Assembly: GCF_005144415.1 (NCBI RefSeq)
Contig: NZ_SWJE01000012.1
Location: 1-64,000, forward strand
Length of the DNA: 64,000 nucleotides
DNA from: Trinickia terrae
GTDB lineage: Bacteria; Pseudomonadota; Gammaproteobacteria; Burkholderiales; Burkholderiaceae
Direction of reading: 5' to 3'
Shown in pieces: positions 38,645 to 55,649 of the stretch. The translations under genes and the position numbers were made by a program. Position 1 is the stretch's first letter. Every line of letters begins with the position of its first letter. Under the pieces are notes generated by a model. The model had not been told where the DNA came from, did no database searches, and was given only the letters and a program-made list of their open reading frames with translations.

Positions 38645-39037
38645 TTACGTCTCGATCAGCACTTCATTAAACACAACAGACGTCACCCCAATCCCATACA
38701 ACAGATCCTGCCCAAGCTCCTGAATCGCGTCGTCGTCCGGATCGAATTCCCAGTCGATATCGACGGCGCAGCCGCGCTTGGTCGCATCGTGCAGAAGCGT
38801 AAAGAGCTGCCGCATCGCCTTCGTCGACGCACTGTTGATATAGGTAAGCCGCACCCGCATCACAAAGTGATCAGGCGCCGCAGTCTCCAGATACTGGCCG
38901 ATCAACTGCAGAATCGGCCCAAAGAACGTGTTCGGATTTTCAGGGTGGCACTCGCCTTCGACCGAAAGCCGCTTTTCAGCGGGCGAAAACTCGATCGCGG
39001 GAGTGAAGTCGGTACGGGGTAACTTGATCGGCGTCAT
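38645..39037 (-). CDS. siaC: SiaC-like regulatory phosphoprotein (DUF1987)
   Basis: 130 residues starting MTPIKLPRTDFTPAIEFSPA. DUF1987 features are GECHPENPNTFFGPILQ and the motif LTYINSASTKAMRQL (residues 64-78), whose Ser/Thr cluster corresponds to the phosphorylated site region of Pseudomonas SiaC. Established: unphosphorylated SiaC binds and activates the diguanylate cyclase SiaD, the kinase SiaB phosphorylates it and the phosphatase SiaA reverses this. Third gene of siaABC here, 16 bases after siaB. No cyclase follows. Confidence 0.85.
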   Translation of the reverse strand: MTPIKLPRTDFTPAIEFSPAEKRLSVEGECHPENPNTFFGPILQLIGQYLETAAPDHFVMRVRLTYINSASTKAMRQLFTLLHDATKRGCAVDIDWEFDPDDDAIQELGQDLLYGIGVTSVVFNEVLIET

Positions 39038-39053
39038 CGTGCTGCCTCTGGAA

Positions 39054-39617
39054 TTAGACAAATGCCTTGATATGAAAGCGAGCGAACCGCTCCGGCGCTT
39101 CTTCGTCGCCCGTGAATGCGTATTCGATCGGATGCGCGCTGTCGCGCGCGATGGTCAAGAGCCCAAGGCCTGCGCCCTTGCTGATGGTGTCGTTGACGGC
39201 GTGGTCGTCGTTGGCGAGCTGCTCGCGATAGGCCTGCTTGATTTCCTCGAGCGTCATCTGCTTGAGCTGCTCGAGCTTGGCCGTGATGCGCGCCACCTGT
39301 TCGTGCGGCACGAGATTGCCGCAGATGATCCAGTAACTGTCGCCCTCGCGGCCGACGGCGATCGCGCCCGGGCGCGACTCTGAGTTTCCGTCGGCCTCCA
39401 CGCAGCCGCCGTAATGCAGCACGTTCTGCGCCATCTCCATGAAGGTCGAAAAGAGCTTGCGCTTGGCCGGGCCGCCCACGTCCTCCTGCTCGAGCCGGCT
39501 CTTCAGGCTCGTCGACAGCGAACGCCGCACTTCTTCGTCGAAGTGGCCGCTGTAGTAGTAGACGAGGCCCGCGCTATCGGCTGCGCTGTGAAATGCCTGG
39601 AATGCGCTGAAGTCCAT
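39054..39617 (-). CDS. siaB: SiaB-like protein kinase
   Basis: About 187 residues starting MDFSAFQAFHSAADSAGLVY. The GHKL-like ATPase features are the N-box region STFMEMAQNVLHYGG and a C-terminal glycine loop SKGAGLGLLTIARDSAH. It phosphorylates SiaC. I prefer the ATG at 39617, because GAGG is seven bases upstream; the alternative ATG at 39623 overlaps the siaA stop (ATGA) but has GAGG only two bases away. Confidence 0.87.
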   Translation of the reverse strand: MDFSAFQAFHSAADSAGLVYYYSGHFDEEVRRSLSTSLKSRLEQEDVGGPAKRKLFSTFMEMAQNVLHYGGCVEADGNSESRPGAIAVGREGDSYWIICGNLVPHEQVARITAKLEQLKQMTLEEIKQAYREQLANDDHAVNDTISKGAGLGLLTIARDSAHPIEYAFTGDEEAPERFARFHIKAFV

Positions 39618-39619
39618 CG

Positions 39620-40906
39620 TCATGCCTCGTTCGTGAACGTGAAGAAGCAGACGTCGTCGCGGCGATGCTGGCTGCCCTGCCACTCGGCAAAGCTCGCGAG
39701 CAGCGTGTCGCCGAACTGCTGCGGGCTTTGCGCGCGCTGCTCGGCAAACAGCTTGTAGAGGCGCTTGCGGCCGTGCGCGATCTTCTTCGGGCCGCCGACC
39801 TGGTCGATGATGCCGTCGGTGGTGATCAGCGCGCGGTAGCCGGGCTGCAGCGCCTGATAGCGGCTCGTGAACGCGAAATCGTCGGGCGTGTCGCTGTAGC
39901 CGACGCCCATCTTGTCCCCTTCGAGCACGACCACTTCCGCTTGCGCATCCGCCACGAGCGCAAGCTCGAGCCGCGCAGCCGCGTATTGCATCTGCGTGCC
40001 CTTGCCCGTGAGCACGAACATGAACGCATCGAGCCCGTCGTCGGACTTGCCGCGGCGCGGCGTCTGCACGCTCGCGCCGCTCGCCTCTTGGCCGAGCACC
40101 TTCTTGATGTAGCGGCTCAGGCCCGAAAGCACCACGGCCGGGTCCGGCTCTTCGCCGCCCGTCGCGATATGGTTCTCGAGGTACGAGAGCGTGATGAGCG
40201 TCATGAACGCGCCCGGCACGCCATGGCCCGTGCAGTCGATGATCGCGCCGAATACGCCGTTTTTCGTGGCGCGAAAGAAATAGCAGTCGCCGCCGACGAC
40301 ATCGCGCGGCAGCCATTCGAGGCGCGCGGAAGGCAGGCAGGCCGCGAGCTCGCGATCCGAGTTGCCGAGGTTCGATTGCTGGATCGCGGAGGCGTACTCG
40401 ATGCTCGAAAGCAGTTGCCGGGTCTTCGCCGCTTCGATGTCCGACATCGCCTTGATGAGCGCCATGCCGCTGCCGACGCCGGTATATTGACCGTCGCGCG
40501 TGCAGATGAAACCGTCCTTCATCACGCGCGATTCCGGCTCGACCGCATTGCGCACGACGACCTCGATCGGCGTCTTGACGTCGACGACGAGCGGCTCCTG
40601 GTTCGCAAACGAGACGCACGCGCGCTTGCCGAACACTTCGCGCGAAAACGGCCGCCCGTACTGCTCCATGAACACGTTGCGGTTGACGAGCGCGATCGGC
40701 GCACCGTCCTTCACCACGGCCACCGCTTCGATGTCGGGAGTCTCGAGAAAGTATTCCTGCAATTGCGCGTTCGTCATCGTCGACGGAATCGCGGCCGCTT
40801 CCGCGGCAATCTGCCCCGCGTGCACGACGAGCCCGGGAGCCGCCGCGTCTTGCTGATCGGAACTGGCGGTTGCCAGAGCGCTATAGAGCTGTTCGATACT
40901 GGCCAT
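39620..40906 (-). CDS. siaA: SiaA-like PP2C/SpoIIE phosphatase with N-terminal sensor-like domain
   Basis: About 428 residues. Residues 45-130 look like a CBS-like or ligand-sensing module (IEAVAVVKDGAPIALVNRNV, MEQYGRPFSREVFGKRACVS). The C-terminal SpoIIE-type PP2C domain has metal-binding Asp motifs RDVVGGDCYFF, IIDCTGHGVPGAFMT and ALITTDGIIDQVGG. No transmembrane helix or HAMP domain is seen, unlike Pseudomonas SiaA, which is a membrane sensor. Role: dephosphorylates SiaC in response to an unknown signal, here probably cytosolic. First gene of siaABC, divergent from wspA. Confidence 0.87.
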   Translation of the reverse strand: MASIEQLYSALATASSDQQDAAAPGLVVHAGQIAAEAAAIPSTMTNAQLQEYFLETPDIEAVAVVKDGAPIALVNRNVFMEQYGRPFSREVFGKRACVSFANQEPLVVDVKTPIEVVVRNAVEPESRVMKDGFICTRDGQYTGVGSGMALIKAMSDIEAAKTRQLLSSIEYASAIQQSNLGNSDRELAACLPSARLEWLPRDVVGGDCYFFRATKNGVFGAIIDCTGHGVPGAFMTLITLSYLENHIATGGEEPDPAVVLSGLSRYIKKVLGQEASGASVQTPRRGKSDDGLDAFMFVLTGKGTQMQYAAARLELALVADAQAEVVVLEGDKMGVGYSDTPDDFAFTSRYQALQPGYRALITTDGIIDQVGGPKKIAHGRKRLYKLFAEQRAQSPQQFGDTLLASFAEWQGSQHRRDDVCFFTFTNEA

Positions 40907-41498
40907 AGAAGATCCCACTGCAAACGAAGACAGGAAGTCACGCGACGTAAGGGGCAAATGCAAGTCGGCACGGACGCGTCAAGCGGCGTCGCAGCCACCG
41001 TAGCCGCCCGGGAAATTAGCGCTGCGGCATGACAATTCCGTTAACGCAAGGCCACGTTTTTCCTTACCGCGGGTCTTTTTGGGCAATAGCTTACGAATTC
41101 CAAAGAAAAACTTTCCGAGGCCTAAAGTTTGTCTAAAATTGACCGATATAAATGGCCCGGCTTTTGAAGCGGCGGCTTGAAAAGCACGAGCCCAATGCTT
41201 TCACGCTGCTTTCAAATATTGCAATAACCACCAATTGACCCGTGCGCCCAGACCTATAGAAAATTCGGCAAACCACTGAGAAGCGAGACCATTCCAGGCA
41301 TGACACGCGGCGCAGCCCTTGACCGGAGAGCCTGCCGCCAAGACCGAAGCCCCGATCTGCCGGACATTACATGCACTTTTCGGCGAAATGGTTCTTCCCG
41401 AAGTCGTATAGCTTTGACGAGCAGCGTGCATGGCCGGGAATGCGCCTATCGGACTGGCGCCGGCGCCCGCTTATTCACTTCAGAAAGAGGCATTGACG
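40907..41498. other. Divergent intergenic region between siaA and wspA
   Basis: 592 bases controlling two biofilm signalling operons. It contains the sigma-28-like promoter at 41123-41149 pointing to wspA, and an AAAGAGG ribosome site for wspA at 41484-41490. No gene is supported here. Confidence 0.6.
41123..41149 (+). promoter_or_regulatory. Sigma-28 (FliA)-type promoter for the wsp operon
   Basis: TAAAGTTT (41123-41130), an 11-base spacer, then ACCGATAT (41142-41149). The enterobacterial FliA consensus is TAAAGTTT-N11-GCCGATAA, so the minus-35 is perfect and the minus-10 matches 6 of 8. It points towards wspA, with a leader of about 340 bases. Confidence 0.6.
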
Positions 41499-43175
41499 AT
41501 GGCTACCGTGTCGCCACGCGCTAACAGCGCCCCCTTGCCCGGCGTATCGGCCGGCGCCAGGTTCACCCTCGGGCGCCGCATTGTCGCCATCTTCGGCGCG
41601 CTGTTCGTGCTGATGCTAGTGATGGCCGCGATTTCCTATACGCGCCTCAGGGCGATCGACGACGAAGCGGTCAGCCTGAACCGAGACTCGGTGCCGGGCC
41701 TCTACTACGCCGCCGCGCTGCGCATCACCTCGGTCGAAAGCTACGAAGCGCTCGAGCGCGCTGTGTTCGCCAACACCGACGACCAAGGCGCCAAGCGCGA
41801 TTTCGACCATTTGGCGAACGTGCTGCGCGAATTCGACAAGAACGTCGGCGACTATCAAACCACGCTCTTTCGCGACGACGACAAAGCGCGCTTTAACGAA
41901 TTCAAGTCCGCTTACGACCAATATCTGCCTTTGGTCAGCGACGTCGTTCACGAGGCGCAGACGTCGCGGCCCGCCGCGCACGCCTCGTTCGCGCGCGTAT
42001 TCCCCGCATGGCAGAAGGTGATTGCCCAAGCCGACAAGCTCGTCGCCGAAAACCACGGTCAGGCCAACGACTCGGCCAACGCGATCCGCGACTCGGTGAG
42101 CGGCACCGAATACACGCTCGCCACGGCGCTCGGCGTCGTGCTGCTCGTCGCGCTCGTCACCGGCTATGCGCTCCTTCGCGCGATCACCGTGCCGATGGCG
42201 CGGCTCGTCGAAGTGCACGACGTGATGCGCACCGGCAATCTCACGCAGCGCCTGAACCTGCGCCGCAACGACGAGTTCGGCACGCTCGAGGACGGCTTCA
42301 ACCGCATGGCCGAAGAGCTCACGAGCCTCGTTGCGCAGGCGCAGAAGTCGTCGCTGCAGGTCACGACCTCGGTCAGCGAGATCGCCGCCACGTCGAAGGA
42401 GCAGCAGGCCACCGCGAGCGAAACCGCCGCGACCACCACCGAGATCAACGCGACCTCGCGCGAGATCTCAGCCACCGCGCGCGACCTGCTGCGCACGATC
42501 AACGAAGTGTCGGCGGTCGCGGAGCAATCGGCGACGCTCGCGGGCGCGAGCCAGAGCGGCGTCGCGCGCATGGAAGAGACGATGCGCGGCGTGATGGAAG
42601 CCGCGGGCTCGGTCAACGCGAAGCTCGCGATCCTCAACGAGAAAGCCGTCAACATCAACCAGGTCGTCGCCACCATCACCAAGGTCGCCGACCAGACCAA
42701 CCTGCTCTCGCTGAACGCGGCGATCGAAGCCGAAAAAGCCGGCGAGTACGGCCGCGGCTTCGCCGTGGTCGCCACCGAGATCCGCCGCCTCGCCGACCAG
42801 ACGGCCGTCGCCACTTATGACATCGAGCAGACCGTCAAGGAGATCCAGTCGGCGGTGTCGGCCGGCGTGATGGGCATGGACAAGTTCTCCGAGGAAGTGC
42901 GCCGCGGCATGCGCGACGTGCAGGAGGTGGGCGGCCAGCTCTCGCAGATCATCAACGAAGTGCAGGCGCTCGCGCCGCGCTTTGCTCGCGTGAACGACGG
43001 GATGCACACGCAGGCGAGCGGCGCCGAGCAGATCACGCAGGCGCTCTCGCAGCTGTCCGAAGCGGCGCAGCAGACCGCGGAATCGCTGCGCCAGTCGTCG
43101 CAGGCGATCGACGATCTCACGCTCGTCGCCAACCAGCTTCGCACCGGCGTGTCGCGCTTCAAGATCGAAGCCTGA
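41499..43175 (+). CDS. wspA: Wsp surface-sensing chemoreceptor
   Basis: About 558 residues; Pseudomonas WspA has 542. TM1 lies at about residues 27-46, followed by a periplasmic four-helix sensor, TM2 (TLATALGVVLLVALVTGYAL), a HAMP domain (VPMARLVEVHDVMRTGNLTQ) and a signalling coiled coil with tip VADQTNLLSLNAAIEAEKAG. AAAGAGG precedes the ATG by eight bases. In the Wsp system WspA responds to surface contact or envelope stress and activates the kinase WspE, raising cyclic-di-GMP through WspR. First gene of a complete seven-gene operon. Confidence 0.94.
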   Translation: MATVSPRANSAPLPGVSAGARFTLGRRIVAIFGALFVLMLVMAAISYTRLRAIDDEAVSLNRDSVPGLYYAAALRITSVESYEALERAVFANTDDQGAKRDFDHLANVLREFDKNVGDYQTTLFRDDDKARFNEFKSAYDQYLPLVSDVVHEAQTSRPAAHASFARVFPAWQKVIAQADKLVAENHGQANDSANAIRDSVSGTEYTLATALGVVLLVALVTGYALLRAITVPMARLVEVHDVMRTGNLTQRLNLRRNDEFGTLEDGFNRMAEELTSLVAQAQKSSLQVTTSVSEIAATSKEQQATASETAATTTEINATSREISATARDLLRTINEVSAVAEQSATLAGASQSGVARMEETMRGVMEAAGSVNAKLAILNEKAVNINQVVATITKVADQTNLLSLNAAIEAEKAGEYGRGFAVVATEIRRLADQTAVATYDIEQTVKEIQSAVSAGVMGMDKFSEEVRRGMRDVQEVGGQLSQIINEVQALAPRFARVNDGMHTQASGAEQITQALSQLSEAAQQTAESLRQSSQAIDDLTLVANQLRTGVSRFKIEA

Positions 43176-43204: not shown

Positions 43205-43714
43205 ATGCTCTTCCTCCTGTTCGAACTCGACAGCGACCGGTACGCGCTCGACGCGAGCCGGATCGCCGAAGTGCTGGCGCTGACGCCGGCCAAAGCGATC
43301 CCCGGCGCGCCCGCCTGGGTGGCCGGCGTGATCGACCGGCGCGGCGAGCCCGTGCCCGTCGTCGACGTGGCGCAGCTCGCGCTCGGGCGTCCCGCCCGGG
43401 AGCTGCGCTCCACGCGCCTCGTGCTCGTGCGCTACCGTCCGGACGCCGCGTCTGAAGGCGGCGCAAGCGGCCCGGCCGGAGAGCGGCTGCTCGGCCTGAT
43501 CGTCGAGCGCGCGACGCAGACGCGGCGCATCGAGCGCGACCGCTTCGCCGATACCGGCGTCGCGACGCCGCACGCGCGCTGGCTCGGCCCCGTGGCGAGC
43601 GATGCCGACGGTCTCGTCCAGTGGGTCGACCCGCGCGACATGCTCGACGACGACGTCAAGGCGCTGCTGTTCGCGAAGACGTCCGCCGAGCCACAGCCGG
43701 CGCCTGCATCATGA
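43205..43714 (+). CDS. wspB: CheW-like adaptor
   Basis: 169 residues, CheW fold: LFELDSDRYALDASRIAEVL at the start, AWVAGVIDRRGEPVPVVDVA in the middle. It links WspA to the kinase WspE. It starts 29 bases after wspA and overlaps wspC by ATGA. No strong ribosome site, so coupling to wspA is likely. Confidence 0.92.
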   Translation: MLFLLFELDSDRYALDASRIAEVLALTPAKAIPGAPAWVAGVIDRRGEPVPVVDVAQLALGRPARELRSTRLVLVRYRPDAASEGGASGPAGERLLGLIVERATQTRRIERDRFADTGVATPHARWLGPVASDADGLVQWVDPRDMLDDDVKALLFAKTSAEPQPAPAS

Positions 43715-45135
43715 GCGCATCCGCCTCCCTGGACGCCGCCTTGCCGCGCTATGAAGCGTGGCTCGCCCGCGAGACCGGCATCGACGCGGAAACGCTCGGC
43801 GCGAGCGGCCTCGCGCGCGCGGTGCTGGAGCGCACGCGGGCAACGCAAGGCCTCGGCGAACCGGCGGCAGAGATCTCCGAAAACGCGCTCGAAGCGTACT
43901 ACCAGCAGCTGATCGCCTCGCCCGAAGAACGGCAGGCGCTGATCGAAACGCTGGTCGTGCCCGAGACATGGTTCTTCCGCGATCGCGAAGCGTTCGCCGC
44001 CCTCGCGCGGCTCGCGCACGAACGGCTCGTGCGTGAACCGGCCCGCGCGCTGCGCGTGCTGAGCGCCCCCTGCTCTACGGGCGAAGAGCCCTATTCGATC
44101 GCGATGGCCTTGCTCGATGCGGGGATCGCGGCCGAGCGCTTTTCGGTCGACGCCGTCGACATCAGCGAGCGGGCGCTCAACCATGCGCGCCTCGCGATGT
44201 ACGGACGCAACTCGTTTCGCGGCCATGCGCTCGAATTCCGCGCACGGCATTTCAGCGCGACAGAGGACGGGTGGCGCTTGCACGAGCGCGTGCGCGAGGC
44301 GGTGCGCTTTGCGCGCGTCAACCTGTTCGAAGCGCCGCCGTCGAATGGCGGCGTGAAGTACGACTTCATCTTCTGCCGCAACATGCTGATCTATTTCGGC
44401 CGTGATGCGCAGGATCAGGCGATCCGCCGGCTCGACGCGCAGCTCGCGGATGGCGGCGCGATCTTCGTCGGCCCGGCCGAGACCGGCTTGATGATGCGGC
44501 ATCCGCTGAGCCCGGCGCGCATTCCGCTTGCGTTCGCGTTTCGGCGCGCGCAGCCGGAGGAAACGGCGGCGCGTGGGGCGTTTGCGTTGCCGGTGTTGCC
44601 GATGGCAACAACCGCGACGGCTGACAAAGGCGCCGCCGATAGACAACCGCTGCCGGTTATCGCGCGACGTTCGGGCACGGCATCCGCGCCCGCAACTGTC
44701 TTTACGCCGCCGCGCCCGATCGAGCAGCGTGTTCCTGCGCCGCCCGCGCAGCCTCGCCCCGTCACACGGCCTGCCGCGCCTGCGCCCGCCACGCTCGAAG
44801 ACGCACGCCGCAGCGCCGACGCCGGCCGTCTCGACGAAGCCGCGATGCTCGCGCACGCATTCATGAAGCAGCACGGCCCGCACGCCGACGCGTTCTACCT
44901 GCTCGGCCTGATCGCCGACGCGCAGAACCGCGGCGACGAAGCACACGACCACTACCGCAAGGCGCTGTACCTGGAGCCCACGCACTACGAGGCGCTGACC
45001 CATCTCGCGGCATTGCTCGACATGATGGGCGACACGGCCGGCGCAGAACGGCTGATGCGCCGCGTCGAACGCGCCACGCCGCCGACGGCGCCGGCAAGCG
45101 CCGGTGCGCGTAACGCTCTCGCGAGGACCTCATGA
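43711..45135 (+). CDS. wspC: CheR-like methyltransferase with TPR domain
   Basis: 474 residues. The CheR domain has the SAM motif VLSAPCSTGEEPYSIAMALL, plus VDAVDISERALNHARLAMYG and FIFCRNMLIYFGRDAQDQAI. A Pro/Ala-rich linker (about 275-345) leads to TPR repeats (ADAFYLLGLIADAQNRGDEA, HYRKALYLEPTHYEALTHLA). It methylates WspA glutamates to raise its activity. It overlaps both neighbours by four bases. Confidence 0.94.
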   Translation: MSASASLDAALPRYEAWLARETGIDAETLGASGLARAVLERTRATQGLGEPAAEISENALEAYYQQLIASPEERQALIETLVVPETWFFRDREAFAALARLAHERLVREPARALRVLSAPCSTGEEPYSIAMALLDAGIAAERFSVDAVDISERALNHARLAMYGRNSFRGHALEFRARHFSATEDGWRLHERVREAVRFARVNLFEAPPSNGGVKYDFIFCRNMLIYFGRDAQDQAIRRLDAQLADGGAIFVGPAETGLMMRHPLSPARIPLAFAFRRAQPEETAARGAFALPVLPMATTATADKGAADRQPLPVIARRSGTASAPATVFTPPRPIEQRVPAPPAQPRPVTRPAAPAPATLEDARRSADAGRLDEAAMLAHAFMKQHGPHADAFYLLGLIADAQNRGDEAHDHYRKALYLEPTHYEALTHLAALLDMMGDTAGAERLMRRVERATPPTAPASAGARNALARTS

Positions 45136-45857
45136 AACGCGACCCGAACCCCACACCGGGCGCGTCGCCTGTCGACGCTTGCTGGAACCGCATCGGCACG
45201 CGCGGCGACGGCTCGTGTCCGCAACTGGCGACGTATTCGCGCTGCCTGAACTGTCCCGTCTTCGAGAAGGCCGCCTCCACGCTGCTCGACCGCCCGCTCG
45301 ACGACACGGACCTTGCCGCCGCGCTGGAAGTTGCGCGCGCAACGAACGCGGATCGAACGCGCGATGCGGCTCGCAGCGAAACGGCCACCGAGGCAACGCA
45401 AGCGCAATCCGCGCTCGTCTTCCGCATCGCCGACGAATGGCTCGCGCTGCCGAGCACCACGCTCAAGCAGATCGACAACCTCCGCCCGATCCACTCGCTG
45501 CCGCACCGGCGCAACCGCGCCGTGCTGGGGCTCGTCAACGTGCGCGGCGCGCTGACCGTCGCCGTCTCGCTCGGCGAGCTGCTGCGTCTCGACCGCGCCG
45601 CCGCGAGCGCGCCCTCGTCGCGCAAGCGCTATCCGCGCATGCTGGTGGCCGCCCACCGCGGCGAGCCCGTGGCGTTTCCAGTGGACGAAGTCGAAGGCGT
45701 CCTGCGTTTTGCGGCCAGCGAGCTCTTGCCGGTGCCGACGACGCTCGCCCACTCGACCGGCTCGCACGCAAGCGGCGTGCTCGCGTGGCGCGACACCACG
45801 ATCGGCCTGCTCGATCCGGACCGCGTGTTCGAATCGCTTGCCGGGAGCCTGAAATGA
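45132..45857 (+). CDS. wspD: CheW-like adaptor with Cys-rich N-terminus
   Basis: 241 residues. The N-terminal segment is typical of WspD, with conserved Cys (ACWNRIGTRGDGSCPQLATY, SRCLNCPVFEKAA), followed by a CheW domain (SALVFRIADEWLALPSTTLK, RNRAVLGLVNVRGALTVAVS). It is the second adaptor of the Wsp complex. It starts inside the wspC stop (ATGA). Confidence 0.92.
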   Translation: MKRDPNPTPGASPVDACWNRIGTRGDGSCPQLATYSRCLNCPVFEKAASTLLDRPLDDTDLAAALEVARATNADRTRDAARSETATEATQAQSALVFRIADEWLALPSTTLKQIDNLRPIHSLPHRRNRAVLGLVNVRGALTVAVSLGELLRLDRAAASAPSSRKRYPRMLVAAHRGEPVAFPVDEVEGVLRFAASELLPVPTTLAHSTGSHASGVLAWRDTTIGLLDPDRVFESLAGSLK

Positions 45858-45879: not shown

Positions 45880-48240
45880 ATGAGCACCGAAGACGACCTG
45901 AGCCACGTGCCGCTGCTCGAGCTGTTCCGCGAGGATGCGGCGACGCAGACGCGCGTGCTCTCCGACGGCCTGCTCGCGCTCGAGCACGCCCCAGCCGATG
46001 CCACCGCGCTCGAAGCCTGCATGCGCGCCGCGCATTCGCTGAAGGGCGCCGCGCGCATCATCGGCTTGCAAAATGGCGTCGACATCGCGCATCTGATGGA
46101 GGAATGCTTCGTCTGCGCGCAGCGCGGCGAGCTGACGTTGAGCGCGTCGCACATCGATGCGCTGCTGCATGGCATCGACTTGATCGCACGCGTCGGCGAG
46201 ACGAATCCTGCCGAGGCCGTCACGCGCGCGGATGTCGACGCGTTTGCGATGCGGCTCGCTTCGTCGCACGCGGCGCCTCGCGTCAGCAGCAGCGCCGCCG
46301 CAGGCACAACCACAGGCTCGTCGAAAGACGACGAAGAGGCGACGATGCGCGCCGCGCTCGCGCTGCTCGGCGCGGATGCCGCCGCGCTTGGCGGCGGCTC
46401 TCCTCGCACGGCGAGCGACGCATTCCCCGACGCAGCCAAACCTGCCGTCGAGCCTGAACCGCAGCCCGCCTCCGCACGCGAGCGCATGACGCGCGACGCC
46501 GGCCGCATGCTCCGCGTGCGCGCCGACAACCTCGACCGGCTCTTGAGCCTCGCCGGCGAATCGCTCGTGGAATCGCGCTCGCTCAAGCCGTTCGCCGAAT
46601 CGATGCTGCGCGTGAAGCGCACCCAGCGCGAAGCGGCGCGCGCGCTCGATGCGTTCTACGAAGCGCTCGCGGAACACCTCGACCCACAGGTGCTCGCCTC
46701 GCTCGGCGACGTCCGCGCGCTGCTCTCCAACGCGCAGCAGCTTCTCGCCGCGCGCATCGACGAGCTCGACCGGTTCGACCGCCGCAGCGCCAACCTCGCG
46801 CAACAGCTCTACGACGAAGCGCTGCAATGCCGGATGCGCCCGTTCGGCGACGCCACGCACGCGTATCCGCGCCTCGTGCGCGACCTCGCGCGCTCGCTCG
46901 GCAAGCGCGTGCGCTTCTCGATCGTCGGCTCGGCGACGCAGGTCGATCGCGACATCCTCGACATGCTCGACGCGCCGCTCGGCCACCTGCTGCGCAACGC
47001 GCTCGACCACGGCGTCGAAACGCCGGAAGAACGCGTGGCCAAAGGCAAGCCCGCCGAAGCGACGCTCACGCTCGACGCGCGGCACAGCGCGGGCAAGCTC
47101 CTGATCAGCGTCGGCGACGACGGCGCGGGCGTCGATCTCGAGCGGCTGCGCGCCGCCGTCGTGCGCAGGCAGTTCACTGACGAAGACACCGCCGCGCGCC
47201 TTTCCGAGCAGGAGCTGCTCGAATTCCTGCTGCTGCCGGGCTTTTCGATGCGCGAGCACGTGACCGACGTATCGGGCCGCGGCGTCGGGCTCGACGCCGT
47301 GCGCGAGATGGTCACCGCCGTGCGCGGCGCCGTGCGCATCTATAACGAACCGGGTCACGGCGTGCGCTTCGTGCTGCAACTGCCGCTCACGCTTTCGGTG
47401 ATCCGCAGCCTGCTCGTCGATGTGGGCGGCGAGGCCTACGCGTTCCCGCTTGCGCACGTGCGCCGCACGCTCGAGTTGCCGCGCGACGACATCGACATGC
47501 TCGAAGGCCAGCAGCACTTTCCGTTCGAAGGGCGGCCCGTCGGGCTCGTCACCGCGCACCAGTTGCTCGGCGCAGACGCGGCCGAGGAAACGCGCGCGAG
47601 CGTATCGGTCGTCGTGATCGGCGACGAGCATGAAACGTATGGCGTCGCGGTCGACCGTTTCCTCGGCGAGCGCATGCTCGTCGTGCAGCCGCTCGACGCG
47701 CGCCTGGGCAAGGTCAAGGACATCGCTGCGGGCGCGCTGATGGAAAACGGCGACGTCGTGCTGATCGTCGACATCGACGACCTCCTGCGCTCCGTCGACA
47801 AGCTCGTGCGCGGCGGCCAGCTCGATCGTGTGCGCCGCGCGGAAGGCGTCGCGGCGCGGCAGCGCAAGCGCGTGCTCGTGGTCGAGGACTCGCTGACCGT
47901 GCGCGAGCTCGAACGCAAGCTGCTCGAAAAGCGCGGCTACGCGGTGACCGTCGCCGTCGACGGCATGGATGGATGGAACGCACTGCACGGCGCGAGCTTC
48001 GATCTCGTCGTGACCGACATCGACATGCCGCGCATGGACGGCATCGAGCTCGTCACGCTGATCAAGCGCGACGCGCTGCTCAAGACGATGCCGGTGCTGA
48101 TCGTCTCGTACAAGGATCGCGATGAAGACCGCCGACGCGGACTCGAAGCCGGCGCCGACTACTACCTCGCCAAAGGCAGCTTCCACGACGAAGCGCTGCT
48201 CGATGCCGTGCGGGATTTGATCGGAGAGGCACACGGATGA
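45880..48240 (+). CDS. wspE: Hybrid CheA-type histidine kinase with receiver domain
   Basis: 786 residues. The HPt domain has the phospho-accepting His at 52 (MRAAHSLKGAARIIGL). Dimerisation follows, then an ATP-binding domain with LLRNALDHGVETPEERV, ISVGDDGAGVDLERL and DVSGRGVGLDAVREMV. A CheW-like regulatory domain comes next, and a C-terminal receiver with VVEDSLTVRELERKLLEKRG and phospho-acceptor Asp in DLVVTDIDMPRMDGIELV. It phosphorylates WspR (output) and WspF (feedback). Confidence 0.95.
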   Translation: MSTEDDLSHVPLLELFREDAATQTRVLSDGLLALEHAPADATALEACMRAAHSLKGAARIIGLQNGVDIAHLMEECFVCAQRGELTLSASHIDALLHGIDLIARVGETNPAEAVTRADVDAFAMRLASSHAAPRVSSSAAAGTTTGSSKDDEEATMRAALALLGADAAALGGGSPRTASDAFPDAAKPAVEPEPQPASARERMTRDAGRMLRVRADNLDRLLSLAGESLVESRSLKPFAESMLRVKRTQREAARALDAFYEALAEHLDPQVLASLGDVRALLSNAQQLLAARIDELDRFDRRSANLAQQLYDEALQCRMRPFGDATHAYPRLVRDLARSLGKRVRFSIVGSATQVDRDILDMLDAPLGHLLRNALDHGVETPEERVAKGKPAEATLTLDARHSAGKLLISVGDDGAGVDLERLRAAVVRRQFTDEDTAARLSEQELLEFLLLPGFSMREHVTDVSGRGVGLDAVREMVTAVRGAVRIYNEPGHGVRFVLQLPLTLSVIRSLLVDVGGEAYAFPLAHVRRTLELPRDDIDMLEGQQHFPFEGRPVGLVTAHQLLGADAAEETRASVSVVVIGDEHETYGVAVDRFLGERMLVVQPLDARLGKVKDIAAGALMENGDVVLIVDIDDLLRSVDKLVRGGQLDRVRRAEGVAARQRKRVLVVEDSLTVRELERKLLEKRGYAVTVAVDGMDGWNALHGASFDLVVTDIDMPRMDGIELVTLIKRDALLKTMPVLIVSYKDRDEDRRRGLEAGADYYLAKGSFHDEALLDAVRDLIGEAHG

Positions 48241-49238
48241 ACATAGGCGTCGTCAACGATTTGCCCCTCGCCGTCGAAGCGATGCGCCGTGCGATCGCGA
48301 AACGCCCGGACCACCGCGTGCTATGGGTCGCAACCGACGGCGAGCAGGCCGTCGATTTCTGCATCGCGCAGCCGCCCGACATCGTGCTGATGGATCTCAT
48401 CATGCCGAAATTCGACGGCGTGGAAGCGACGCGGCGCATCATGGCGCGCGCGCCATGCGCGATCCTCGTCGTCACGCACAGCGTGGGCGCGAATGCGTGG
48501 CGCGTGTACGAAGCGATGGGCGCGGGCGCGCTCGACGCGATCGATACGCCCACGCTCGCCGACAGCATGGCCGACGCCGCGCAGCCGCTGCTCGCGAAAA
48601 TCGACCAGATCGGCCGCCTGCTCGACAACCCGGGCGCCTATCGCCAGAGCGCGCCCGCGACGGCGCGCTCCGGCAGCACGCCGCTCGTCGCGATCGGCGC
48701 ATCCGCCGGCGGCCCGACAGCGCTCGCCGCCGTGCTCGGCGCGCTGCCGGAAGACTTTCCCGCGGCGCTCGTGCTCGTGCAGCACGTCGACCGTGCATTC
48801 GCCGACGGCATGGCCCAGTGGCTCAACGGCCAAACACCGCTGAACGTGCGCATCGCGCAGGAAGGCGACGCGCTTCAAAAGCGCACCGCCCTGCTCGCCG
48901 CAACCGACGACCATGTGCGCCTGACGCGCGACGGCACGCTCGTCTATACGCGCGAGCCCGCGGAGATGCCGTACCGGCCGTCGGTGGACGTGTTTTTTCA
49001 GAGCGTCGTCGAGCACTGGCAAGGCGACGCGATCGGCGTGCTGCTGACCGGCATGGGCCGCGACGGCGCGATCGGCCTGAAGGCGATGCGCGCGAAGGGG
49101 TACCACACGATTGCACAGGACCAGGCGACGAGCGCGGTGTACGGAATGCCGAAAGCGGCCGCCGCGCTCGATGCCGCGCGCCAGATTCTGCCGCTCGAGC
49201 ACATCGCGCGCGAGCTGACCGCGCTCGTCACAGCGTGA
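48237..49238 (+). CDS. wspF: CheB-like methylesterase
   Basis: 333 residues. The receiver domain has the Asp in DIVLMDLIMPKFDGVEA. The methylesterase domain has the catalytic Ser in IGASAGGPTALAAVLGALP, the His in LVLVQHVDRAFADG and the Asp in TGMGRDGAIGLKAMRAKG. It removes methyl groups from WspA and so damps signalling; loss of WspF in pseudomonads causes wrinkly, high-cyclic-di-GMP colonies. ATGA overlap with wspE. Confidence 0.95.
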   Translation: MNIGVVNDLPLAVEAMRRAIAKRPDHRVLWVATDGEQAVDFCIAQPPDIVLMDLIMPKFDGVEATRRIMARAPCAILVVTHSVGANAWRVYEAMGAGALDAIDTPTLADSMADAAQPLLAKIDQIGRLLDNPGAYRQSAPATARSGSTPLVAIGASAGGPTALAAVLGALPEDFPAALVLVQHVDRAFADGMAQWLNGQTPLNVRIAQEGDALQKRTALLAATDDHVRLTRDGTLVYTREPAEMPYRPSVDVFFQSVVEHWQGDAIGVLLTGMGRDGAIGLKAMRAKGYHTIAQDQATSAVYGMPKAAAALDAARQILPLEHIARELTALVTA

Positions 49239-49299: not shown

Positions 49300-50433
49300 A
49301 TGAACGTCGATCACCCCGGCTCCCTTGACGAAGCGGCAACCGAGCGGCCCGTGGCGGACGGCGCCGACGCGGCGCTCGAAGCAGCACGCACCGCGCTCAT
49401 GACGCCACCGGCCACCGACATGCCGGTGATGGTCCTGCTCATCGACGACCAGACGATCGTCGCCGAAGCGGTGCGGCGCGCCCTTGCCGATGACCCCAAC
49501 ATCGATTTCCATTACTGCTCGCGCGCCGACGAAGCGATGGACGCAGCGCACAAGACGCGGCCCACGGTGATCCTGCAGGACCTCGTGATGCCGGGCATCG
49601 ACGGGCTCACGCTCGTCAAGGAGTACCGCGCCGATCCGGCGATGCGCGACGTGCCGATCATCGTGCTCTCCACCAAGGAAGAGCCGGTCATCAAGAGCGC
49701 GGCGTTTTCGGCAGGGGCCAACGACTACCTGGTGAAGCTGCCGGACCGGATCGAGCTGGTGGCGCGCGTGCGGTATCACTCGCGCTCGTACATCAACCTG
49801 CTGCAGCGCGACGAAGCATATCGCGCGTTGCGGCAATCGCAGCAACAGTTGATGGAGGCGAATCTCGAGCTGCGGCGGCTCACGCATTCGGACGGTTTGA
49901 CGGGGTTGTCGAACCGGCGCTATCTCGACGAGTACCTTGGCGCCGAGTGGCGGCGCGGGGCGCGGCACGAGTCGGAGCTGGCGATGCTCATGATCGATGT
50001 CGATAACTTCAAGCCGTATAACGATACGTATGGGCATGTGGCCGGGGATGATGCGCTCAAGCAGATCGCGGAGACCGTGGCGAATTGCCTGGGGCGGCCG
50101 GGGGATCTTGCTGCGCGGTTTGGCGGGGAGGAGTTTGCGGTTGTGCTGCCTGGGACGCCTCCCGGTGGCGTGAAGCAGCTTGCGGAGAAGATTCGCGCCG
50201 AAGTCGAGGCGCTGAGGCTGCCGCATGCGGGCTCGTCAACGGGCGAGTATCTGACCGTCAGCATCGGCGGAGCTTCGCTTGTGCCGGCGGCGGAGATGCC
50301 GATTACGTCGCTTGTCGAGCTCGCGGATTTTGCGCTTTATCAGGCTAAGCGCGAGGGGAAGAATCGGGTGGTTATCGTTGAGGATTCGGTGGGGGTGGGG
50401 GAAAGGCCGGGGGTTTCGGTGGGGCGGGATTAG
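49300..50433 (+). CDS. wspR: Response regulator diguanylate cyclase
   Basis: 377 residues. The receiver domain carries VLLIDDQTIVAEAVRRALAD with the phospho-acceptor Asp in VILQDLVMPGIDGLTLV. A helical stalk leads to a GGDEF domain with the active-site GGEEF in ARFGGEEFAVVLPGTPPG and the inhibitory I-site RPGD five residues before it. It makes cyclic-di-GMP when phosphorylated and clustered. About 35 residues precede the receiver. It follows wspF after 61 bases. Confidence 0.95.
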   Translation: MNVDHPGSLDEAATERPVADGADAALEAARTALMTPPATDMPVMVLLIDDQTIVAEAVRRALADDPNIDFHYCSRADEAMDAAHKTRPTVILQDLVMPGIDGLTLVKEYRADPAMRDVPIIVLSTKEEPVIKSAAFSAGANDYLVKLPDRIELVARVRYHSRSYINLLQRDEAYRALRQSQQQLMEANLELRRLTHSDGLTGLSNRRYLDEYLGAEWRRGARHESELAMLMIDVDNFKPYNDTYGHVAGDDALKQIAETVANCLGRPGDLAARFGGEEFAVVLPGTPPGGVKQLAEKIRAEVEALRLPHAGSSTGEYLTVSIGGASLVPAAEMPITSLVELADFALYQAKREGKNRVVIVEDSVGVGERPGVSVGRD

Positions 50434-55360: not shown

Positions 55361-55649
55361 AGCCCCCCGCACGCGGGACTAAAGAGTTGACCGCCTGAAG
55401 CCGATAACGCAGTCAAGCGTCGGAACATCCTTACACCGCATTACATGGGGCACCACCCCGGATTTCGCCGCTGCGGCAGCGGGCGCCTACAAGCGCCCGC
55501 CATGAATTGCTTGCTATTCGCTTACGACTCGAGACAGCCTCCACACGGCCGAGTGCGTCTTGAAAGCTCGCTGGACGCGAACGGTCGTTTCGGTGCGATA
55601 TCGCTGCAGCTCTCCGATTGGTTCGAGACGATTTAACTGGATCGAAGAA

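Follow-up and report, generated by a model that had tools for sequence, protein, structure and literature searches.

The E. coli-type sigma-28 consensus is TAAAGTTT-N11-GCCGATAA. E. coli FliA sites are reported to agree with this consensus, and the class 3 promoters recognized there (tar-tap, trg, aer, ycgR and motAB-cheAW) are alike in their boxes and 11-base spacer to a site we describe upstream of the surface-sensing operon wspABCDEFR (PMC4183435). Like those promoters, the wsp site faces a chemosensory operon whose first gene encodes a methyl-accepting receptor. Unlike them, it is a predicted promoter that would give rise to a much longer leader (349 nt from −10 box to ATG), its target acts on cyclic-di-GMP rather than on the flagellar motor, and it is not conserved in relatives. 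A second parallel is bifA of Pseudomonas putida, also a cyclic-di-GMP gene, which has two starts, one sigma-28 and one sigma-70-like, in the same layout as that considered here for wspA (PMC5300878). The bifA case differs in that BifA breaks down cyclic-di-GMP and in that its starts, 103 and 40 nt from the ATG, were mapped and tested. As with wspA, the sigma-28 site is not general: bifA of P. aeruginosa PAO1 is described as having no sigma-28 consensus upstream (PMC5300878). For the same type of operon, the main promoter described in P. putida, P(wspA), differs from the site considered here in being bound by RpoS, not FliA, and the word 'FliA' is absent from the main text of that paper (PMC11784136). 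Open-access literature searches on FliA together with wsp, Burkholderia flagella or cyclases yielded no paper recognized, from its listing, as a report of FliA control of wsp.

The Wsp R-system of Beta- and Gammaproteobacteria has the gene order wspABCDEFR, with WspR last; WspR-type systems occur in Paraburkholderia and others, and WspH-type systems in Burkholderia only, according to the survey that describes these types, whose main text has neither 'promoter' nor 'FliA' (PMC8552884). In the window, the whole 64,000-nucleotide stretch of DNA analyzed, wspA to wspF and wspR were identified by domain content and order, and the expected order is present on the + strand. The first gene, wspA (41499–43175), encodes a receptor with 4HB_MCP_1, HAMP and MCP signalling domains. 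Its reading frame is open from 41430; the start at 41499 is preceded by AGAAAGAGG, and both the ATG and AGAAAGAGG are kept in G002, a genome of the same genus. Downstream lie wspB (CheW domain; 43205–43714), wspC (CheR methyltransferase with TPR; 43621–45135, with a true start probably downstream of 43621), wspD (CheW domain; 45132–45857), wspE (Hpt, histidine kinase, CheW and receiver domains; 45880–48240), wspF (receiver and CheB methylesterase; 48237–49238) and wspR (receiver and GGDEF diguanylate cyclase; 49300–50433). Judged by gene content, the system is of the WspR type.

The locus differs from the described Wsp R-system in that a divergent siaABC-like operon adjoins wsp. This operon (38645–40906, − strand) encodes SpoIIE phosphatase, DUF6272 and SiaC domains; the siaA-like gene with the SpoIIE phosphatase domain comes first (39620–40906), and the siaC-like gene (PF09345) occupies 38645–39043. 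No GGDEF-sized ORF lies between 37891 and 38645, and thus there is no adjacent siaD. A functional pairing of SiaC with WspR, the cyclase that ends the wsp operon, is conceivable. Within the stretches retrieved around wspA, siaA is found near wspA at none of 84 other wspA loci, and the matches to the siaA-like gene in G001 and G002 are N-terminal and partial only. The retrieved stretches of six siaA-relative loci (L235–L240, 29–42% identity) contain no FliA-type site scoring at least 13.

A FliA-type site between siaABC and wsp

The original prediction described a near-consensus FliA motif that points at wspA, and this description stands: TAAAGTTT-GTCTAAAATTG-ACCGATAT is present at 41123–41149 on the + strand, with sequence, coordinates and strand confirmed exactly. 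The −35 box TAAAGTTT (41123–41130) matches the E. coli-type box at every position. The −10 box ACCGATAT (41142–41149), set off by a spacer of 11, holds both of the mismatches to the consensus (2/16), namely A for G at its first position and T for A at its last. A first-position A also occurs in the fliC site of G025 and, according to a table in PMC4183435, in the −10 box of E. coli ycgR. The site is intergenic, lies in the divergent region in the sense orientation to wspA, and is the sole match in the window with at most three mismatches (shuffle mean 0.10). By eye, its spacer is AT-rich and the spacers of most other FliA-type sites are richer in G+C, a difference that counts against a FliA promoter. 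The second-best FliA-type score in the window (17.3) belongs to a site at 55380 (+), with a spacer of 12 and the form TAAAGAGT ... GCCGATAA.

FliA-type reference sites were collected from the genome itself and three relatives, and a weight matrix was built from 17 flagellar, chemoreceptor and GGDEF gene sites with the wsp site left out. The wsp site scores 23.5 on this matrix, above 14 of the 17 references, which range from 15.6 to 26.0 when each is left out in turn. Under independent-base or first-order models, and with references picked via a consensus-similarity filter, 0.04–0.36 sites of this score are expected in 2 x 7.24 Mb for 63–47% G+C. Because some of the 17 references came from the same type of search, the analysis was rerun on a matrix limited to the 10 sites of the flagellar cluster, where the wsp site ranks third of all 46 genome candidates, with 0.02–0.18 expected genome-wide under the same kinds of model. 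None of 20,000 simulated intergenic regions reached the wsp score. Matches with at most three mismatches number 46 genome-wide versus 27 for a reversed control pattern. A looser pattern, TAAAG-N15-CCGATA with one mismatch, gives 60 genome matches versus 81 for its reversed control and is therefore no commoner than that control, which leaves only the full-length match informative. The wsp motif is real, and a chance origin is unlikely.

The genome also has the machinery that such a site would need, with FliA, FlgM, MotA, FlgK, FliS and flagellin identified by NCBIfam models. The ~120 kb around the flagellar genes hold seven FliA-type matches, before motA, flgM, a YcgR-like gene (162 bits for the protein, against a curated cut-off of 400), flgK, fliS, fliC and a gene at C45:103076 without an NCBIfam match. 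The six named promoters have the same form as the wsp site. They lie 28–98 nt from their genes if the second start of the YcgR-like gene is used (its first start gives 42 nt), and the seventh match lies at 117 nt. G002 retains all six with little or no change in distance, and none of its listed sites corresponds to the seventh.

Conservation upstream of wspA

A match to the WspA sensor half is present in 21 of 60 relatives. G002, with a WspA 87% identical, is the nearest wsp-bearing relative; G001 has no WspA match. Upstream of wspA, homology to G002 covers the 265 bases from 41234 up to the start codon (41234–41498, 76.6% identity). This common block does not include the FliA-type site, where the G002 sequence is unrelated. 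When the 592-base intergenic stretch was compared with 398 family genomes (its own included), a long match was found only in G002, and pieces of 28–50 bases in three more. Outside its own genome, the unique stretch at 40907–41233 is matched in this set only by a 28-base piece (G094, query 59–86), and a plasmid search returned nothing beyond the wspA side and a portion of the siaA coding sequence. Within the wspA leader, the piece at 41291–41340 has a 50-base, 84% match in G011 (C33), away from the WspA match of that genome, and a 33-base match in G071 (C21).

We scanned 94 wspA upstream regions of at most 700 nt each: the region itself, those of 13 relatives (31–87% identity, the lowest of which are perhaps not true WspA) and 80 others, taken as the best 80 of 560 relatives, with L145 contributing only 108 nt and L017 and L168 being probably one genome. 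A score of at least 15.6, the lowest of any reference, is reached in one of the 94 regions, that of the window itself, and in none of the 93 others. Six regions score 13.6–13.9 (Caballeronia L134, L135, L137, L138 and L140, plus L013); these matches were rejected because they look like the 3′ end, stop codon included, of an upstream frame. Matches in Ralstonia (L116 with three mismatches, L121 with four and L106 with five) were dropped on account of a poorly kept −35 box and scores below 12. For some Paraburkholderia upstream regions a sigma-54 promoter was considered by eye and dropped, since the group did not have it in common.

As a control, the same matrix was applied before motA, for which 38 of 61 genomes have a match and 30 loci were scanned. 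A site was found at 14 of these loci, 13 of the 19 in the family and one of the 11 outside, which indicates adequate sensitivity of the scan within the family but not beyond it. Thirteen other genomes have a WspA relative of at least 31% identity; eight of them have the motA site and none a wspA site. Conservation of the motif upstream of wspA in Burkholderiaceae, proposed earlier as a check on FliA control, thus fails. The idea that wsp is, as a rule, a FliA-dependent late flagellar operon in this family draws on the 41123–41149 site itself; it is contradicted by the count of one in 94, by the success of the same scan before motA and by the coding origin of the Caballeronia matches, and we regard it as almost certainly wrong.

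Lack of conservation can be read in more than one way. The site before a PAS-GGDEF gene at C10:64560 scores 24.9 in the genome itself versus 14.2 in G002, though the two proteins are 96% identical, and it is weak or absent in six other relatives whose proteins are 59–79% identical. Outside the flagellar cluster, FliA-type sites evidently come and go quickly, and their absence from relatives is therefore no proof that they lack a function. The wsp site is missing from every relative examined; it may accordingly be a local, additional switch and not a family-wide rule.

Candidate transcription starts of wspA

The end of the −10 box lies 349 nt from the wspA ATG at 41499, beyond the usual distance between a FliA promoter and its gene; the original prediction gave no such distance. 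Transcription from the FliA-type site would begin near 41156, giving a leader at 41156–41498 (+). No terminator-like site was found between the FliA-type site and wspA. A riboswitch or other structured leader was rejected on the lack of any Rfam match in the window and on folding of 41156–41498 that is no better than that of shuffles (z −0.20). We also considered whether the site might instead serve a separate short RNA or small peptide from 41156–41498. These 340 nt hold no known gene, and sigma-28-dependent small RNAs are reported in E. coli (PMC10578931), but such a product is highly improbable given the same Rfam and folding results, the absence of a terminator-like site and + strand ORFs of only 28–74 aa.

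Between the FliA-type site and wspA lies a sigma-70-like element, TTGACC-N18-GAAAAT (41235–41264, +), that matches nine of 12 consensus positions and is the one such match in the region, versus 0.3 in shuffles. The element falls inside the block common to G002, where it has a counterpart, and is a better candidate than the FliA-type site for the basic wspA promoter. The −10 preference of RpoS resembles that of sigma-70. A proximal common block with such an element would explain how wsp can be expressed in relatives without a FliA-type site. Several Paraburkholderia regions keep a AATGTAAAATTCGCCG stretch nearer the gene, and by eye GAAAATTCGGC here resembles it.

The best explanation, held tentatively and at slightly less than even confidence, is that 41123–41149 is a lineage-specific accessory FliA promoter added to the housekeeping-type promoter of wspABCDEFR. 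The site lies in the unique stretch (~40907–41233) that joins the divergent siaABC-like operon to wsp. Export of FlgM through the finished hook would free FliA-RNA polymerase, which would start at ~41156 and proceed through the 340-nt leader into wspABCDEFR, so that Wsp proteins made in step with motility would supplement those supplied at a basal level by the 41235–41264 promoter. Two starts are most likely under this model: a proximal one of housekeeping type that was inherited together with wsp, and a distal one, dependent on FliA, that was acquired when siaABC and wsp were joined or later. From the arrangement of these elements we infer FliA binding, the position of the start, read-through into wspA and an effect on cyclic-di-GMP.

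A different account is that FliA can bind the site and nothing depends on it, the site having arisen by chance or in the siaABC–wsp rearrangement, with wsp transcribed from the proximal sigma-70- or RpoS-type promoter. This is a genuine possibility, if on balance a doubtful one. It would fit the absence of the site from the 93 other wspA loci, its position outside the G002-common block and its long distance from the gene, as well as the RpoS-bound main wspA promoter of P. putida (PMC11784136). The genome also has some equally strong sites within reading frames and without an obvious target (among them C12:376321 and C56:124849), and in E. coli 30 of 52 FliA sites are reported to lie inside genes, most of them without detectable RNA (PMC4183435). 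E. coli sites that lie inside a gene and over 300 nt from the next gene downstream were considered an unlikely source of that next gene's mRNA (PMC4183435), a judgement that counts against a FliA promoter at 349 nt. However, the chance expectation is well below one per genome, the site lies between genes and is directed at a chemoreceptor gene, and non-conservation is weak evidence when the PAS-GGDEF site is likewise degraded in G002.

An accessory promoter would preserve part of the original prediction, which had made wsp a late flagellar gene. In its favor are a near-consensus, correctly oriented intergenic site, a genome with FliA, FlgM and other promoters of this kind, and an unobstructed path to wspA as far as terminator-like sites are concerned; the single occurrence among 94 regions, the distance of 349 nt and the intervening sigma-70-like element render 'late flagellar gene' too strong. 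The site may nonetheless add a FliA-dependent wspA start in its own lineage. If FliA drives wsp, some of the surface-sensing machinery would appear only once a cell has finished its hook, which would offer a testable answer to when Wsp appears relative to flagella, and such wiring would be gained and lost quickly. If it does not, the locus is a warning that a near-perfect sigma-28 site before an attractive operon need not be its promoter.

FliA-type sites elsewhere in the genome

Strong FliA-type sites precede chemoreceptor genes at C72:18143, C7:258767 and C11:116850, and near-consensus sites are found 71 nt upstream of the PAS-GGDEF gene (G000:C10:64560, L196) and 9 nt upstream of a GGDEF gene with an unnamed sensor part (G000:C12:38312, L199). 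FliA-type sites are thus common outside the flagellar cluster in this genome, and the candidate chemoreceptor and GGDEF gene sites lie 9–123 nt upstream of their genes. A weaker site (C2:148115, score 17.5) before a GGDEF-EAL gene overlaps an opposite-strand ORF.

The FliA-like sites before other GGDEF genes make a wider link from FliA to cyclic-di-GMP possible. In its broadest form, FliA would have captured several cyclic-di-GMP genes in this lineage, comprising wspABCDEFR, the genes at C10:64560 and C12:38312 and perhaps that at C2:148115, besides the YcgR-like gene; we consider a capture of this breadth rather unlikely. Were it true, a finished hook would give the go-ahead both for swimming and for the surface sensing that ends swimming, in a sigma-28-wired checkpoint rewired between close relatives. 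Apart from these genes, the genome's best FliA-type match by mismatches (1/16; G000:C21:23646, L174) lies 32 nt before a gene for a lipoprotein-like protein of 208 aa that matches neither Pfam nor NCBIfam models.
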